A stretch of 64,000 bases of DNA, taken from positions 1 to 64,000 of the IMG/VR virus record IMGVR_UViG_3300025910_000007. One strand, given 5' to 3'. Below are positions 37,872-50,369 of the stretch, in pieces (within the stretch, counting starts at the first letter, position 1; each line of letters opens with the position of its first letter). The translations under genes were made by a program, and so were the position numbers. The DNA comes from a virus. Below the pieces are notes generated by a model. The model was not told the origin of the DNA, searched no databases, and worked only from the letters and a program-made list of their open reading frames with translations.

Positions 37872-38054
37872 TTATTTCGTTTTCCTACTCTGTACATAAT
37901 GACGCAATCGCAGCTTTTGATCCTGCATCCGATTGGTTATCAGGTAGTATGAGAGCATGAATACCCGACGCCCCCCCCGTAACACAATCTCCGGTTCACC
38001 AACCAGCTTCCGTCCGGGTAGGGCGCCGCAGCTGCCCGAGTAAAACAGGATCAT
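37872..38054 (-). CDS. Micro-ORF a (MIxFYSG family), intact
   Basis: The 60-residue product reads MILFYSGS...EPEIVLRGG...VFMLSYYL and ends in a basic tail. The G8 tract (plus-strand C8 near 37973) leaves the frame intact. It is the last of seven tandem related ORFs and stops two bases before the SANT-like gene start codon. The same motifs (YYSG, PExVL, MLSFF) occur at the dpdA-1/dpdA-2 junction. Function unknown. Confidence 0.55.
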   Translation of the reverse strand: MILFYSGSCGALPGRKLVGEPEIVLRGGRRVFMLSYYLITNRMQDQKLRLRHYVQSRKTK

Positions 38055-38213
38055 GCGTCATCTTTCCGAAGCGATAGTTTTGCATCTGTCCACTACCCTC
38101 TTCTTTCGGACAAGAAATCAGGTAGTACGACAACATCAATGCAGCGCCCCCCCAAGGACGTCTTCTGGTTCCAGATCTTTGTTGCCGTTACTGCCTGAGT
38201 AGAACAGAATCAC
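37996..38213 (-). CDS. Micro-ORF b (MIxFYSG family), frame broken at G7
   Basis: A GTG start overlaps the stop of micro-ORF c (GTGA). The frame reads VILFYSGS...LEPEDVLGG, then meets a G7 tract (plus strand 38147-38153). A -1 shift there restores ALMLSYYLIS as in copy a; without it the frame stops at once. The shifted frame ends inside copy a. Confidence 0.5.
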
Positions 38214-38395
38214 GCGGGTAACTTCTTCCGCATACGGCGATAGCGACGGAAGCGGCCCTGCTGCATTTTCACCGCGGCCTGTCCTGAGAGCATATGATAG
38301 GTGAGCATGAAATCGCCTTTGCGCAACACCAGCTCAGGATCACATCGCGTGATCTTCAGCGTCCCGTCGCCGTTTCCCGAGAAAAAAATACGAAT
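38210..38395 (-). CDS. Micro-ORF c (MIxFYSG family), no ATG
   Basis: The frame reads RIFFSGNGDG...RCDPELVLRKGDFMLTYHML and a basic tail, the full family pattern without a G tract. There is no ATG/GTG/TTG in frame near the expected start after GAGGG, so ATT or another rare start would be needed, or the copy is decayed. Its stop overlaps the start of copy b. Confidence 0.45.
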   Translation of the reverse strand: MRIFFSGNGDGTLKITRCDPELVLRKGDFMLTYHMLSGQAAVKMQQGRFRRYRRMRKKLPA

Positions 38396-38559
38396 AACTT
38401 TCCCTCTTCTGTTTGCATACCAGCCGAAAACGGGGCTCTGGCCTACGTTTGCCTACTGAGTTGACAGCTGTCAGCATCAGCGTAGCCGCAGCCCCGAAGT
38501 ATCGTTCAGGATCAGTGGTATGGTCTCCCCCCCCCGTCGCCACTGTAGAAAATTACCAC
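38340..38559 (-). CDS. Micro-ORF d (MIxFYSG family), frame broken at G9
   Basis: A GTG start overlaps the stop of copy e (GTGGTAA). The frame reads VVIFYSGDGGG and then a G9 tract (plus strand 38527-38535). Shifting by +1 (or -2) gives TDPERYFGAAATLMLTAV, the family core; unshifted it stops within five codons. The shifted frame ends at 38340 inside copy c. Confidence 0.5.
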
Positions 38560-38735
38560 GGCCGCTTACTCTGCTTGCGATGAAATATGCGACGCATGAT
38601 CTTTTTACCAAATGCTGACGATTTGCCACTGGCGTAAATATCGTAATAGGTGCAGAGCAGACAAGGAACTGTTCGCGACCGTCGCACCATCGCAATGTCA
38701 ATAGGTCGATGAACTCCAGCAATGAACATAATCAT
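38553..38735 (-). CDS. Micro-ORF e (MIxFYSG family), intact
   Basis: The 60-residue product begins MIMFIAGVHRPIDIAMVRR and continues CLLCTYYDIYASG with a Lys/Arg-rich end. It lacks a G tract. It is a divergent member of the same family, and the overlap of its stop with the start of copy d supports translation. Confidence 0.5.
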   Translation of the reverse strand: MIMFIAGVHRPIDIAMVRRSRTVPCLLCTYYDIYASGKSSAFGKKIMRRIFHRKQSKRPW

Positions 38736-38765
38736 CGTGCGATCTCAATCAAGTGCTGAAAATTA

Positions 38766-38951
38766 TCATGGTTGTTTGGCAATGTGTTTTCTTTTCAACC
38801 ACCGGCGTAGGCGGATACGTTGCTTGAACCAAATACGAAGACGGGATTGCAGCTCTTCTTGTCGATTATCGAAATAAGAGAACATCATGTGGCGCCCCCC
38901 CTATTTTCGGCTGTTTGGTTCGCAGCCTATGCCAGAAAAAAATAAGATCAT
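38766..38951 (-). pseudogene. Micro-ORF f (MIxFYSG family) interrupted by in-frame TAG
   Basis: The ATG overlaps the shifted-frame stop of copy g (ATGA). The frame reads MILFFSG...EPNSRK, then TAG (38901-38903) directly before a G7 tract, then GGRHMMFSYF and a basic tail in the same frame. Readthrough, slippage or decay are all possible. An additional seven-codon MIIFST stub follows its stop. Confidence 0.45.
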
Positions 38952-39117
38952 TTCACTGTCCGCTGCTTTCTATGATCCCGCCACACCCACCGTTGCTTGC
39001 TTCCTATGTTCATGTATGTCAGTAGCAACGGCAAAGACGCCCCCCCCCGTTCGCCTCTTCATCAAAAGCCCTCGCCCACTTACCAGCCGATTCGGGGCCA
39101 GAATAAAATAGGATCAT
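38948..39117 (-). CDS. Micro-ORF g (MIxFYSG family), frame broken at G9
   Basis: The ORF starts seven bases after dpdA-2 and reads MILFYSGPESAGKWARAFDE, then meets a G9 tract (plus strand 39040-39048). A -1 shift gives SLPLLLTYMN and a basic tail, whose stop overlaps the ATG of copy f. That overlap exists only in the shifted frame, which argues that the shifted frame is or was translated. Confidence 0.5.
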
Positions 39118-39123
39118 GGAAGA

Positions 39124-40104
39124 TCACTTGCCATTACCAGAGAAGAATCCAACGGCCGGACGGCGATTGGCTGGCTTGAATGGCCAGGGATATTCCGATA
39201 GCCACTTGCGCAGCCCCTCGAAAAACAACAGGTTGGCAATCTTGCGCTCGCTGTGGCGATTGATGACGCCATGTTCGATAACGTTGCCGTCCTTGTCGTT
39301 CTTGCCCAGCGGTACGCCAATCTGTTTCAGCCATTCCCGCACGATCCGTTGTTCACCGGGTGACAGCGTCGAGTAGTGCTTACCCTTGGCTCGCGTAGGG
39401 GCGTCCTGCGACATGGTAATTTGGTAGGGCTCTGTTTCGTATGTGAACCTACCGCCACGCTTGTGCGGTAGCAAGATACCGCCAAACGCCCCTACCTTCG
39501 TCCACGTAGCAGAATCCACGCTCCACCACGGATAGCGCAACAAACATTCGTATCCGGTGACGGCGAATCCATGCAGTTTTACTTTCGGTAGCCGCTTTGG
39601 AGTGTCGCAAACGAAATCAAACACGCGGTCTAACCACGTTCGACATGCTGGCGATCCGAAGCTTCCTACTAGGCCGCCGATGGCGATGAACTCATAACCA
39701 CGTCGAACGTAGCGACGCAGCCATTTCAGATCGGTGCGAAAATGTACCACCGGAACCGGCGCCAGTCCGTGTTCTTTTTCGAGGTACTGCTGATTACGCC
39801 ATGTTAGTTCTGGTTCTGGGATCGCGTCCACATTGGCGTAATAGTCGATGTACTTTCGGTATTTCTTGACGAAGGCCGCGTACTCATCCATGTACCGCCA
39901 GAATTCTTTGGTGTCGTAATAACTCCAGGGTGATTTTCCGTGCTTCTTTCCGTACTTCGTGGCGGCTGTCCAAAGAGAGAAGCTGCCACTGTCCAGAAAA
40001 AACAAGCCGTTTTCCGTAGTCATTTCATCTGCCGTGAAATAGATTTGTGCGGCCCTAGAACGATACCGAGGCTCCGGACAGCCTCGCAAGCAAGAGTCTA
40101 TCAA
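39124..40104 (-). CDS. dpdA: DpdA-like 7-deazaguanine DNA transglycosylase, copy 2
   Basis: The body reads FFLDSGSFSLW, YYANVDAIPEP, QYLEKEHGLAPVPVVHF, IAIGGLVGSFGS, VKLHGFAVTG and YPWWSVDSATW, the TGT-superfamily core of DpdA proteins that exchange guanine for preQ0 in DNA. The open frame starts at TTG 40104 or ATG 40023. The expected N-terminal piece (IYYSG...PETVL...IMLSFF) is encoded just upstream in the frame of copy 1, so a frameshift near 40125 probably separates it. Confidence 0.78.
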   Translation of the reverse strand: MIDSCLRGCPEPRYRSRAAQIYFTADEMTTENGLFFLDSGSFSLWTAATKYGKKHGKSPWSYYDTKEFWRYMDEYAAFVKKYRKYIDYYANVDAIPEPELTWRNQQYLEKEHGLAPVPVVHFRTDLKWLRRYVRRGYEFIAIGGLVGSFGSPACRTWLDRVFDFVCDTPKRLPKVKLHGFAVTGYECLLRYPWWSVDSATWTKVGAFGGILLPHKRGGRFTYETEPYQITMSQDAPTRAKGKHYSTLSPGEQRIVREWLKQIGVPLGKNDKDGNVIEHGVINRHSERKIANLLFFEGLRKWLSEYPWPFKPANRRPAVGFFSGNGK

Positions 40105-40993
40105 ATCGGGGACACGGTATGTCGAAAAAAGATAGCATGATGCGAGCTTTTGTTTTCAGCACCGTTTCAGGTTGTCCGCCTTTGGCTCCGGCGCCACTGT
40201 AGTAAATCTTCAGGGGCTTATAGCTTCCATCGGGTTGCAGCTTTTGCAATTGTTTCCGCAGCCATTCATAATATTTAAGGTAGCATGCGTACCAAACTCT
40301 CGGATTAGCTAAATCACCTGCGGAGAACCCTAGATGATCGAGCCATCGCAAAACAGCTCTACGATGAAGCGGAGGCAGCGTGTCGAGATGGCCTTGATTA
40401 CTTTGTTTGGTATTACCGACTTTTATGATGATTGCATCCTTTTCGGCTGTCCATACACCTTTTTTCGTTAGCGGTAACACTAAATATCCGCGGCTACCAA
40501 GATGCGCCCAACGTACTGTATCGACTGAATGCCAAGGAAACTGAGCCATCGACCGATGTCCTCCGATTCCAAAACCATGCACTTTCACTTGCGGGATTCC
40601 GCGGCTATTGCACAGCTGATCGAAAACCAGACGAATCCACTCCTTACTCGTTCTTCTAGTTGTCGAGGCTGCGATACCGCCCAGACCTATGTATCGGTAG
40701 CCCCGATTTATGTAGTGTCGAATCCACTGCAAATCTGTTCCTAGGTGTATGACTGGAACGGGAGAAAGCCCGTGCTCTTTTTCGAGATATTGCTGGTGGT
40801 CCCAAGACAACTTTGCGTCAAACATCACGTCGACATTAGCGTAGTAATCAATCGCGATTTCATTGGCATGAATAAAAGCCGCGTATTCATCCATGTACGT
40901 CTTGTAACTGGAGGCCGTCGCTTTCGATTTCTGCCAAAGTGAAAATGCGCCGGAATCTAAGAAATGTGAACGGGGCGGCCAGAATTCGGTCAT
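40055..40993 (-). CDS. dpdA: DpdA-like 7-deazaguanine DNA transglycosylase, copy 1
   Basis: The start at 40993 (MTEFWPPRSH) gives 312 residues with FLDSGAFSLWQ, YYANVDVMFDA, QYLEKEHGLSPVPVIHLG, IGLGGIAAST, VKVHGFGIGG and FPWHSVDTVRW. It is about 45% identical by eye to copy 2. Its last 50 residues are not part of the usual body but the IYYSG...MLSFF module. It lies directly downstream of folE in a preQ0 operon. Confidence 0.8.
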   Translation of the reverse strand: MTEFWPPRSHFLDSGAFSLWQKSKATASSYKTYMDEYAAFIHANEIAIDYYANVDVMFDAKLSWDHQQYLEKEHGLSPVPVIHLGTDLQWIRHYINRGYRYIGLGGIAASTTRRTSKEWIRLVFDQLCNSRGIPQVKVHGFGIGGHRSMAQFPWHSVDTVRWAHLGSRGYLVLPLTKKGVWTAEKDAIIIKVGNTKQSNQGHLDTLPPLHRRAVLRWLDHLGFSAGDLANPRVWYACYLKYYEWLRKQLQKLQPDGSYKPLKIYYSGAGAKGGQPETVLKTKARIMLSFFDIPCPRFDRLLLARLSGASVSF

Positions 40994-40997
40994 GGTT

Positions 40998-41579
40998 TCA
41001 CCCGCGGATGAGACTGAGCAGTTCTTGGCGCACGACGGATTCACGAAAAGCCCCTGTCAATGACGATGTTACCAGTTCCGAATGCTGTTTCTGTACACCG
41101 CGACAAACCATGCAGAAATGAGTCGCTTCCAGTATACAAGCGGCCCCCAGCGGCTTCAGATGCTCGTCCAGCGCAGCAGTCACTTGCTGACATAGACGTT
41201 CCTGTATCTGCAAACGGCGAGCATAGATGTCGAGAATTCGTGCCAGTTTGCTTACTCCAATCACTCGTTTGTCTGGGATGTATGCGATGTGGGCGCTACC
41301 GAAAAATGGCTGTAGGTGATGTTCGCAAACAGAATGGAATTCGACATTGCGTAACACTACCATCTCGTCGCAGGCCCCATCCTCGAACACCTTCAGCACG
41401 TCTTCGGGTTTTTGTTTGTAACCTGCGAACAGCTCATCGTAACTGCGCAGCACGCGATCTGGGGTATCTCGCAGCCCCTCGCGCTCGGGGTCGTCCCCAA
41501 TGTACGTCAACAACGACAGAACGGCTTGACGGGCCTGACAGTACCAGATGGTATCGCCGGCCGGCTTCGGTTCATCCAT
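40998..41579 (-). CDS. folE: GTP cyclohydrolase I
   Basis: The start at 41579 (MDEPKPAGD) follows GAGGAA and gives 193 residues. Zinc and active-site residues are seen in FHSVCEHHLQPFFG, with IGVSKLARI and HFCMVCRGVQKQHS. It makes dihydroneopterin triphosphate, the first step towards preQ0. The upstream queC overlaps its leader. Confidence 0.92.
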   Translation of the reverse strand: MDEPKPAGDTIWYCQARQAVLSLLTYIGDDPEREGLRDTPDRVLRSYDELFAGYKQKPEDVLKVFEDGACDEMVVLRNVEFHSVCEHHLQPFFGSAHIAYIPDKRVIGVSKLARILDIYARRLQIQERLCQQVTAALDEHLKPLGAACILEATHFCMVCRGVQKQHSELVTSSLTGAFRESVVRQELLSLIRG

Positions 41580-41586
41580 GCGTTCC

Positions 41587-42267
41587 TCATTTCGACAGCA
41601 ATTCACAAGACAGGTAGGACAGCGGGTCTTCTGTGTTGTTGGCCGCGAACGCGGTAAGCCGCTCCTGGCAGCTTCCGCACTTGCCGCACGCGAGCGGCTG
41701 CGCCTTGTAGCAGGTGCGTGTCAGTGCGAACGGAACGTTCAGAAGCAGCCCCTCGCGCACGATGTCGTCCTTGGTAAGTTGCAGAAATGGCACTCGTAAG
41801 GAAACCTTGCCATCAGTCGCAGCAGCAATGGCTTCTCGTGCAGCGTCGATGAATCGTGGGCGACAGTCCGGATAGATGAAATGATCCCCCGCATGAACGC
41901 CTAGATACATGGTCGCCGCTCCGACGCTCTCAGCAAGACCAGCAAGGACAGATGCGAAAATCAGGTTGCGACAGGGGACCACTGTTTGGCGCATGCTCTC
42001 TGCTTCGTAGTGTCCCTCCGGTATATCGCCACCACTCAACAACAAATCAGAACGGAATCCCGCCATGACACCAGATAAATCGATGAGACGAAAAGACACC
42101 TCGTAGTAGCCCGCGATCTGCGATGCCGCTTGATTTTCGTATTGATTGTGCTTGGACCCATAGTAGAAGGCGACGGCCATCAGATCGTTGGGACGGATAT
42201 CTCGCAGCACTTGGGCTAGCAGCACAGTGGAATCCAAGCCGCCAGACAGCGAAACTATCGCTCGCAT
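41587..42267 (-). CDS. queC: 7-cyano-7-deazaguanine synthase
   Basis: The 226-residue protein has the PP-loop SLSGGLDSTV at its start, VPCRNLIFASV, and the zinc cluster CYKAQPLACGKCGSCQERLTAF at the C-terminus. It converts 7-carboxy-7-deazaguanine to preQ0 with ATP and ammonia. It is in a row with queE, queD and folE. Confidence 0.93.
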   Translation of the reverse strand: MRAIVSLSGGLDSTVLLAQVLRDIRPNDLMAVAFYYGSKHNQYENQAASQIAGYYEVSFRLIDLSGVMAGFRSDLLLSGGDIPEGHYEAESMRQTVVPCRNLIFASVLAGLAESVGAATMYLGVHAGDHFIYPDCRPRFIDAAREAIAAATDGKVSLRVPFLQLTKDDIVREGLLLNVPFALTRTCYKAQPLACGKCGSCQERLTAFAANNTEDPLSYLSCELLSK

Positions 42268-42269
42268 AA

Positions 42270-42998
42270 CTACTCCAATCCAACGATCTTGTGTAACTGA
42301 AGACAGAGGGTATAGCCAAAGCGTAGACAGCTGTCGACCGCTGCTTTGGTGTTGGCTGCATTCTTGACAGGATCTTGCTCATCGCAGGGCTGGACATAGA
42401 CCTTGTCATGGTATTGATGCAGTGGTAAAGGACGGAAGGGGCGACAGCCGTTAAGTGTCACAGACGGCAGCCCGTCAGCCTCGACCTGTCCGGCACTGAT
42501 GACGTATTTCCATGCGTCGACGCGGCGAACGATCTCGGGTGCCACCTTTGGCGTCTTGGGGGAGCAGACGAAGTGCAACTTGGGGTGATCGTACAAAGTG
42601 GAGAGCGATGGATCGTACAACGTGCCATTCGTCTCGATTTGCACGACGAAGTTGGCCAGTGCTGTACCAATGAAATCTCCGAGCCGCTGCCGTAGCGGTT
42701 CCCCTCCGGTAATGACGATCAGGTCACGGTCGGGATGATTCGTCTGGTAGGGGCCGCGCAGTTGCTGCAACACTTCGATAATCAACTGGAATTTCGACAG
42801 AAGCCGACGACCGCTCGTGTAGTCTGTGTCGCAGAGCGGGCACTGGAGATTGCAGCCAGCCAGACGAATAAACACAGCCGGACGTCCAGCAAATGGCCCC
42901 TCGCCCTGAACCGTGTAGAATACCGAATGGACGTCAAGCAATCCTTCGGGATGCGGCTCACTCTTTTCGATGGGCTGGACATTCGGCAGGGTAATCAC
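42270..42998 (-). CDS. queE: 7-carboxy-7-deazaguanine synthase (radical SAM)
   Basis: A GTG start overlaps the csrA stop. The 242 residues have VFYTVQGEGPFAGRPAVFIRLAGC and the CxxxCxxC cluster CNLQCPLC followed by DTDYTSG, then ITGGEPLRQ. It rearranges carboxy-tetrahydropterin to CDG in preQ0 synthesis. Confidence 0.93.
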   Translation of the reverse strand: MITLPNVQPIEKSEPHPEGLLDVHSVFYTVQGEGPFAGRPAVFIRLAGCNLQCPLCDTDYTSGRRLLSKFQLIIEVLQQLRGPYQTNHPDRDLIVITGGEPLRQRLGDFIGTALANFVVQIETNGTLYDPSLSTLYDHPKLHFVCSPKTPKVAPEIVRRVDAWKYVISAGQVEADGLPSVTLNGCRPFRPLPLHQYHDKVYVQPCDEQDPVKNAANTKAAVDSCLRFGYTLCLQLHKIVGLE

Positions 42999-43199: not shown

Positions 43200-43628
43200 C
43201 TAGTATCCATGTCCGGGATAATCGGCGCAACAGGCCGGCGTTTCCCAGAGCCGCACGTTCGTTACTTCGAGCCCGCTAACCGTCAGCAGCTCTTGGCATT
43301 TTTCGTACAGTTCTCGCGCCATGTTTTCGGCGGTCGGATTGCCGTACTTGACGGCGTAAGGCGGACGTTCCTCGGTTGCTGCTAAATGGGATAGCTGCGG
43401 ATCGGCGGCATTCAACAGCAGCGCATGGTCCCAATTGGCGTCCAGCCAGCCCCCAATCAACTCTTTGATCTTGCCAAAGTCGACCACCATGCCCAGCCGA
43501 TCCAAGCCGTCGGCCCGTACCGTTACCTCAGCAACGCCGCGGTGACCGTGCAGCGAACGGCACTTGCCGCCGTGCCCCAGCACGCGGTGACCGTAGTCGA
43601 ATTCCAGGCGGCGGGTAACGGTGGTCAT
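43200..43628 (-). CDS. queD: 6-carboxytetrahydropterin synthase
   Basis: The 142-residue protein has FDYGHRVLGHGGKCRSLHGHRG (zinc histidines and catalytic Cys), MVVDFGKIK, DHALLLN and PTAENMARELY. It makes carboxy-tetrahydropterin for QueE. Its ATG overlaps the stop of the DUF6884 gene. Confidence 0.92.
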   Translation of the reverse strand: MTTVTRRLEFDYGHRVLGHGGKCRSLHGHRGVAEVTVRADGLDRLGMVVDFGKIKELIGGWLDANWDHALLLNAADPQLSHLAATEERPPYAVKYGNPTAENMARELYEKCQELLTVSGLEVTNVRLWETPACCADYPGHGY

Positions 43629-44101
43629 GTCCCCCTCGAAAATAATCCGCCAGATCGATGCGAGAGCGTTGATTTGACTGCTGCCAGCATTTTGCCGATG
43701 GGAAGGCCCACGAATGGAAAGACAAGATCAACGGAGCTGTTCGCGAACGCGGCTCGAATTGCTGCGCAATATTCCTTGCCCCCCAAACCAATCACCTGCT
43801 CGAATCTATGCAGTTTCATCCGCAAGACCTGCTCGCAAAGCAACCGAACCGCTATCGGAGATGATGATGGTCGGTTGAAAGAGACATCGTAGGGGCCGGG
43901 AATCATGAAATCGGGCGAGATGAATCCGTATTTGGCGCTGAGTATCATCCAAACATCGCCGAACTTTTCGGCGTAACGGCGATTCAGGCGAAACGGCCCG
44001 CCAATGTAGGCCGACTTCGCCTGAATCGCCCCGCGCCGGGGAGCGACGTCCCATGCCTTTGCCTTGCCGCATGGGACTACCACTAGCGTCCCGCTTCCCA
44101 T
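43625..44101 (-). CDS. DUF6884-type protein
   Basis: The 158-residue protein has VVVPCGKAKAWD, SAYIGGPFRLNRRYAEKFGD, WMILSAKYGFI, VIGLGGKEY and FPFVGLPIGKM, matching the DUF6884 family. Relatives are found near DNA modification or DpdA-like genes, and placement beside queD fits that. The biochemical role is unknown. Confidence 0.7.
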   Translation of the reverse strand: MGSGTLVVVPCGKAKAWDVAPRRGAIQAKSAYIGGPFRLNRRYAEKFGDVWMILSAKYGFISPDFMIPGPYDVSFNRPSSSPIAVRLLCEQVLRMKLHRFEQVIGLGGKEYCAAIRAAFANSSVDLVFPFVGLPIGKMLAAVKSTLSHRSGGLFSRGT

Positions 44102-49322: not shown

Positions 49323-50369
49323 TCAGTCCTCCATGTAAGTCATGCGGACCCGCCCGTTCGGTAGTGTTTCCTCGATGTAGCGCTTGCGTTGCTGAGCGGC
49401 CTGTTCTGGACCCAGCGTTTTATTATCACTGCGGCGTTTGGCTGAAATGATCTGCGGGAACTTGTCAGCGATGCCCTTACCTGAATAGGCTTCGGGCATG
49501 TGCTGTTCACCGAAATGGTCCAGATACCACTGGCAGTAGACGCACACGTCCTTTTCGGGATAGGCCCCATGCAAGACGCGCAGCTGTTTCGCCCATGTTG
49601 TAACAACCGCGGCGGCAGACTTGCGATGCGGTCCATTCACCCCTAGCAATCCAGCGCGGTGAACGAGTTCGTACAGGCGGGCTGCGATATTCCTCTCCAT
49701 TGATTGAACAGGAAGGGAACCGTTGGTTGATGCGGGATTTGCCTGATGGGAAGTGCTAGATTTCCCGCAAGAAGAATTATCGTCCCCCCCTGTCCCAAGA
49801 ACGCCGTTAGGCGTTTGGGACTGTTGTTTTTTGATTGTTTTCTTTTTAGGGGGGTAAATACCCCCCACCCGTCGGGGGTATTTACCCCCCGCGGATTCGT
49901 CGGGGGTATTTACCCCCCGCGGTTTGCGGGGCGGTATTTCAACTTCGCCCAACTTCAGAGCGGCCAGCTGTTTTTCAACCTTGCTCGAACAGATATGCAC
50001 CCACCGCTGTTGTGATTCGCCATGCTTGACGGTCTTGACGAAGCCTTCCTTGCGGAACTTCTTGAAGAACTGCTTTTGCGTATCGCTGTCCCAATCAAGG
50101 GAAGTGCGAAGAAATGAAGTGGTGCAGAGAAAGTACGTCTGATCGTCGAATTGCTTTTTGACGCTGTGCTTGCCCGTGGCATGATTGATGAGGTCTTGAT
50201 AGAAGAGGGCTTCAACCTTGGTGAAGAGGCGGTAGGTGACGAATTCCCGCCGAAAGAAGAAGTAGTTGCCCTGCGATTGGGTGATGAGGTCGTCGCAAGC
50301 GCAAAGCGACACGCTGTCCTGCGAACCCTTTACTTTGGCGGTAGGAACGCTAGAATTGTGGGTAGGCAT
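49323..50369 (-). CDS. Helicase-loader/replication-initiator candidate
   Basis: The 348-residue protein starts behind AAGGAG. Residues 30-135 resemble a winged-helix domain (LINHATGKHSVKKQFDDQTYF...FLRTSL). A proline-rich linker (PPRKPRGVNTP, YPRRVGGIYPP) follows, then a helical C-terminus with CVYCQWYLDHFG. Phage proteins of this layout beside DnaB act as loaders. Short GGGGTATTTACCCC repeats lie in the linker coding region. Confidence 0.55.
   Translation of the reverse strand: MPTHNSSVPTAKVKGSQDSVSLCACDDLITQSQGNYFFFRREFVTYRLFTKVEALFYQDLINHATGKHSVKKQFDDQTYFLCTTSFLRTSLDWDSDTQKQFFKKFRKEGFVKTVKHGESQQRWVHICSSKVEKQLAALKLGEVEIPPRKPRGVNTPDESAGGKYPRRVGGIYPPKKKTIKKQQSQTPNGVLGTGGDDNSSCGKSSTSHQANPASTNGSLPVQSMERNIAARLYELVHRAGLLGVNGPHRKSAAAVVTTWAKQLRVLHGAYPEKDVCVYCQWYLDHFGEQHMPEAYSGKGIADKFPQIISAKRRSDNKTLGPEQAAQQRKRYIEETLPNGRVRMTYMED

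Follow-up and report, generated by a model that had tools for sequence, protein, structure and literature searches.

Micro-ORFs beside phage dpdA genes correspond to the first unit of the DpdA barrel and suggest a split, phase-variable DNA transglycosylase

The dpdA locus and its micro-ORF array

The window analyzed here is a 64,000-nucleotide stretch of an 84,483-base IMG/VR virus record, and no close relatives of it at the DNA level were found among cultured phages. On its minus strand lies a preQ0-type operon in which the preQ0 synthesis genes, a radical SAM gene (queE-like), queC, and folE, sit directly upstream of the linked dpdA2 and dpdA1; an array of micro-ORFs follows, beyond which the same order continues with an unknown gene of 197 codons, a sliding clamp, and a DNA polymerase segment. 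The operon adjoins a gene for a DUF6884 protein (43625-44101, minus strand; E 1e-17). Elsewhere in the window, a segment that looks regulatory (49784-49939), with a C7 run and with direct repeats containing C6 runs (GGGGGTATTTACCCCCC), overlaps a predicted gene (49323-50369). The features of the locus are as follows.

42270..42998, minus strand: radical SAM protein, probably queE (Pfam Radical_SAM, E 5e-5, and operon position)
41587..42267, minus strand: queC, preQ0 pathway (Pfam PF06508, E 2.2e-52)
40998..41606, minus strand: folE (GTP cyclohydrolase I), preQ0 pathway (Pfam PF01227, E 2.6e-68)
40055..40993, minus strand: dpdA2, TGT/DpdA body from β-strand 3 (MTEFWPPRSHFLDSGAFSLW); phrog_887 match from profile position 57
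40055..40213, minus strand: module 0, LKIYYSGAGAKGGQPETVLKTKARIMLSFFD..., in-frame fusion to the DpdA2 C terminus (module HMM match)
39124..40023, minus strand: dpdA1, TGT/DpdA body from β-strand 3 (MTTENGLFFLDSGSFSLW); phrog_887 E 3e-38, from profile position 60
38948..39117, minus strand: module 1, broken; MILFYSGPESAGKWARAFDEEANGGG, -1 shift, then ASLPLLLTYMNIGSKQRWVWRDHRKQRTVK (three-frame translation; both halves match the HMM)
39040..39048, minus strand: G9 tract where module 1 changes frame
38766..38951, minus strand: module 2, MILFFSGIGCEPNSRK*GGRHMMFSYFDN..., with one in-frame TAG (38903-38901) at the G-tract
38895..38901, minus strand: G7 tract of module 2, its first G being the last base of the TAG
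38553..38735, minus strand: module 3, intact, 60 codons, without a repeat tract (E 5.5e-14)
38340..38559, minus strand: module 4, broken; GTG start, VVIFYSGDGGG, +1 shift, then DHTTDPERYFGAAATLMLTAVN... (second part matches the HMM)
38527..38535, minus strand: G9 tract where module 4 changes frame
38210..38398, minus strand: module 5, open frame without an ATG, GTG, or TTG start, (V)IRIFFSGNGDGTLKITRCDPELVLRKGDFMLTYHML... (seed HMM E 2e-20)
37996..38213, minus strand: module 6, broken; GTG start, VILFYSGSNGNKDLEPEDVLGG, -1 shift, then AALMLSYYLISCPKEEGSG...
38147..38153, minus strand: G7 tract where module 6 changes frame
37872..38054, minus strand: module 7, intact, 60 codons, tract in frame (E 9e-13)
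37971..37978, minus strand: G8 tract of module 7, in frame

A sequence-only reading of this region had described the array as seven related ORFs of about 60 codons, with overlapping starts and stops that join them into one coupled unit. Seven minus-strand segments downstream of dpdA do share the hhFYSG, MLSYY, and basic-tail pattern, and the relatives show that the resemblance is not due to chance; several starts and stops also overlap as described (ATGA at 38951, GTGA at 38213, GTGGTAA at 38559). The single unit of seven intact ORFs does not hold: full-length ORFs with a standard start are limited to modules 3 and 7, modules 1, 4, and 6 are frame-broken, and module 2 contains a TAG. Overlooked in that reading were the poly-G tracts, an eighth module, and the absence of the module segment from both DpdA proteins. 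The tracts are concentrated in the array, which holds five of the six G/C runs of at least 7 in the window within 1.25 kb (P about 2e-8), and dinucleotide shuffles of the array give a mean of 0.18 such runs and a maximum of 2.

Both window DpdAs retain the catalytic Asp motifs (LDSGSF and SVDSATW in DpdA1, LDSGAF and SVDTVRW in DpdA2). Neither contains a complete one-chain, 8-strand barrel starting with β1-α1-β2; each begins at β3, and the AF2 model of the DpdA2 body has six barrel strands. Within the window, β1-α1-β2 is found only as separate modules or at the C terminus of DpdA2, which continues in frame into module 0, the eighth module, directly upstream of dpdA1. At the equivalent site in L009, between two dpdA genes, the module is free (gene order folE, dpdA, module, dpdA, two modules). 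AF2 left module 0 unplaced in the natural DpdA2-module 0 fusion (module pLDDT 35-42), a prediction that neither supports nor refutes docking. The C-terminal VGFFSGNGK of DpdA1 was considered as a module remnant and rejected, as other DpdAs have the same ending.

The module as the first unit of the DpdA barrel

A profile built from 11 fused DpdA N termini recovers 80 of 92 stand-alone modules at E < 0.01, vs 5 of 5254 antisense control ORFs, which bears out the earlier proposal that the micro-ORFs are stand-alone copies of a DpdA-type N-terminal module. Module 3 of the window is matched by this profile at E 6.5e-4, and module 7, for which the profile is likewise independent, at E 0.19 only. The AF2 model of the fused DpdA of L034 is an 8-strand barrel (pLDDT 89, pTM 0.87) in which the module comprises E2-6, H11-20, and E23-27, so that residues 1-27 form β1-α1-β2, and DSGAF lies on β3. 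Both tRNA-guanine transglycosylase (TGT) and DpdA 7ui4 match this model at Z 18, with L034 residue 1 on residue 40 of Zymomonas mobilis TGT; Foldseek alone ranked generic TIM barrels above TGT, and TGT and DpdA came to the top only after VIA-align. In the TGT/DpdA barrel, the module constitutes strand 1-helix 1-strand 2. Since the window bodies enter PHROG 887 at positions 57-60 and the fused L034 protein enters at position 10, both window DpdAs lack exactly this unit. In TGT, the segment that matches the module helps to form the pocket for the target ribose and the next phosphate, and its loop-helix contributes to the dimer interface (PMC5395182).

In broader searches, the module profile had a sole, weak match among PDB sequences, again 7ui4 (E 0.09), and representative modules gave nothing below E 0.01 against Pfam and PHROGs. 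The phage proteins resemble DpdA, the DNA-guanine transglycosylase of phages and bacteria (PHROG 887; PDB 7ui4), in their homologous body, in the DSGAF and SVDS motifs, and in their folE, queC, and queE-like neighbors, and the module corresponds to the N-terminal strand-helix-strand of the DpdA barrel. Known DpdAs, however, are one chain, whereas in these phages the first unit is encoded apart, in several copies, and with repeats; Z. mobilis TGT also differs, in that its substrate is tRNA and the segment is present in cis. Free and fused forms alternate even within one subtype, the TPG-type module standing alone in L029, L036, and L051 and lying in frame with the DpdA body in L067 and L080. 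An internal ATG lies 8-15 codons ahead of DSGAF in most fused DpdAs, which allows the body to be produced by itself with the fused module switched off.

Distribution and conservation of modules near dpdA

In 57 loci, we counted 150 modules beside dpdA; many stand in tandem, and their subtypes recur. The window and nearly all of its relatives are IMG/VR virus records, mostly metagenomic. Searching with the DpdA body gave 49 viral loci, most of which contain stand-alone modules by the module profile, again often in tandem. When the module alone served as query, 28 loci were retrieved, and 27 of these encode a DpdA body no more than 6 kb away. Across 16 phage records, modules are confined to the surroundings of dpdA. 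Where DpdA is body-only, a stand-alone module lies no more than 3 kb away in 35 of 41 loci; among the remaining 6, inspection by eye shows a weak module in L011 and L040 and one in frame in L052, and L053 stops at the contig edge. The arrangement is present in a cultured phage, Edwardsiella vB_EpM_ZHS, which encodes the DpdA ZHS_65 and the 59-residue ZHS_62 and is the only cultured phage with the LAGLDASH module type. No cultured phage was found with the TPG or TWL subtypes, and the TPG alignment had no match in the bacterial genomes searched.

Between phages, orthologous modules show saturated pS (about 0.78) and a mean pN of 0.28-0.42, with the closest pairs down to 0.12. High pS together with low pN indicates that the modules are conserved and, as judged from these substitution rates, probably translated; the module family is under purifying selection. 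The sequence-only reading had named random frame decay among relatives as grounds for giving up its proposal; for the family, this was not what we found.

Alternatively, the modules could be independent small proteins that have their own function, such as DNA binding through the basic tail or anti-restriction, and only descend from the DpdA N terminus. The many copies per genome, the distinct conserved subtypes, the basic tails, and the presence of stand-alone modules in addition to a fused DpdA in 20 of 25 fused loci all fit this explanation. We nonetheless consider it unlikely, given that body-only DpdAs almost always have a module nearby, that modules are restricted to the vicinity of dpdA, and that an identical subtype is also found fused in frame to a DpdA body.

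Two ORFs are recorded here as separate observations. In L013 (10379-10810), distant from dpdA, a module (MKVFLAGVPAGNQAVREHHLKAMGANNRLTTFYYL) is fused to a DUF4326 domain (E 1e-19). In L003 (4575-4757), a 60-codon ORF, MKIYFGDSGESIGKG..., immediately precedes a module; it shares the strand-1-like start and lacks a clear second strand.

Slippable repeats and a model for a split DpdA

In many modules, the stretch from strand 1 to strand 2 carries a slippable repeat of poly-G, poly-C, (AG)n, or occasionally (AT)n. A strict repeat is present in 27 of 130 in-frame modules vs 27 of 26,000 length-matched control windows, an enrichment of over 200-fold, and dpdA bodies contain 2 repeats in 58.9 kb. 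The repeats vary in base and position among modules, as if they had been gained repeatedly; L027 has four modules in a row, each with a G7-8 tract in frame. Frame offsets of 0, 1, and 2 occur in 31, 12, and 8 cases, numbers that give no unbiased estimate of out-of-frame modules, which were counted only if a repeat was present. In many phages, the second halves past the frame breaks are open and conserved. The position of the breaks, at simple-sequence repeats and not at random sites, points to on/off switching.

Tract lengths differ among L074, L075, L077, and L079, which are related phages 85-91% identical and not strains of one phage. Between conserved flanks, L074, L077, and L079 have C8, C9, and C7 at one tract and G8, G9, and G8 at another; L079 and L075 form a C9/C8 pair, and (GA)n lengths also differ among the four phages. 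Among L074, L077, and L079, only L074 has an open NTPDR module and only L077 an open VPGGG module, each module being broken in the other two phages; the 880-bp dpdA body between the variable modules has no indel. A search for second strains with the exact flank patterns of L017 and L027 matched only those two records themselves.

That the window array is decaying duplicate debris, its frames broken at mutation-prone G-runs, would account for the TAG of module 2, the missing start of module 5, and the lack of tracts in the modules of its nearest relatives, the close clade L007-L011. The TAG and the start loss are not repairable by tract slippage, and part of the array may indeed be decaying. 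As an account of the whole array, we regard decay as improbable: five new G-tracts at differing alignment positions would not be expected from it, the shifted halves are still open in a family under purifying selection, and all four consecutive modules of L027 keep their G-tracts in frame.

Recoding at the tracts, by programmed ribosomal frameshifting or by transcriptional slippage, could instead yield full-length modules without genetic switching; it would explain why, in many phages, breaks coincide exactly with G-tracts and (AG)n and the halves after the shift are open and conserved. Such recoding would be expected to use one conserved direction at a conserved site; here, all three offsets are present, the window modules require -1, +1, -1, or none, tracts differ in base and position, and tract lengths, and hence the shift needed, differ between related phages. 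We rejected it as the main reading on the mixed direction of the shifts and give it little weight overall. Assembly or sequencing errors at homopolymers are a very improbable source of the breaks, even with mostly metagenomic records and a single window sequence, as errors cannot produce the large tract enrichment, dinucleotide tracts vary too, and dpdA bodies are clean; single tract lengths could be wrong through assembly error, and the tracts themselves are not an assembly product.

We favor, with a probability of roughly 0.65, a split DNA transglycosylase in which phase-variable, interchangeable micro-proteins provide the first strand-helix-strand unit in trans. In this model, the dpdA gene product would be the barrel from strand 3 on, with the catalytic Asp motifs, and β1-α1-β2 would come as separate ~60-residue proteins, each encoded by one of the alternative modules of a tandem array, and one such protein would complete the barrel. 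Completion in trans is the simplest way to reconcile the structure, the pairing of the genes, and the way in which fused and free forms alternate. Replication slippage, the presumed cause of the frame differences, would shift each module in or out of frame, and a phage population would come to include particles with differing sets of working modules. If the window phage switches in this way, its present state would have modules 3 and 7 on, modules 1, 4, and 6 off by tract length, module 2 off by its TAG, and module 5 without a standard start. Exchange of modules might plausibly alter the target context or the dimer partner and thereby the modification pattern met by host restriction. A stronger form, in which a DpdA body and a swappable module library with a repeat of its own in each member make a combinatorial phase-variable enzyme that diversifies targets against restriction, is more tentative, and we put it at somewhat under even odds.

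The arrangement resembles bacterial contingency loci (Campylobacter, Neisseria) in its slippable tract inside the ORF, which sets the frame, in the resulting on/off states, and in its length polymorphism; unlike them, it is phage-borne, lies within a half-barrel module of a DNA-modifying enzyme, and has several independent tracts in a row. By analogy, it may also be compared with the phase-variable specificity subunits of restriction-modification systems, where an exchangeable, switched part alters a DNA-modifying enzyme. There is no homology to these or to the specificity domains of HsdS (the type I restriction specificity subunit), no Pfam family at all reaching its cut-off on the modules tested, and the phage part consists of three secondary-structure elements that belong to the catalytic barrel. 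A search of the open-access literature returned nothing on stand-alone DpdA modules or on slippage-based phase variation of phage modification genes. If the model is correct, a catalytic TIM barrel would be built from a fixed body and interchangeable first units encoded as micro-ORFs, and simple-repeat phase variation would act on a phage's own DNA-modification enzyme; we found neither described earlier in that literature. It would also account for many unannotated ORFs of ~60 codons that environmental phages carry near dpdA, and would make phage variation of modification against restriction testable. The model further implies that gene callers and frame "repairs" would annotate module loci wrongly.

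Among the dpdA genes themselves, L017 has a decayed second fused copy (2638-3231) preceding the intact one, and body plus module can thus also duplicate together. DpdA reading frames of 630-690 residues occur in L051 (5830-7860), L046 (5728-7806), and L045 (420-2318); the body match of L051 is interrupted by an intein-like insertion just before the catalytic SVDSTSW motif, and the long frame of L046 has a weak LAGLIDADG match.
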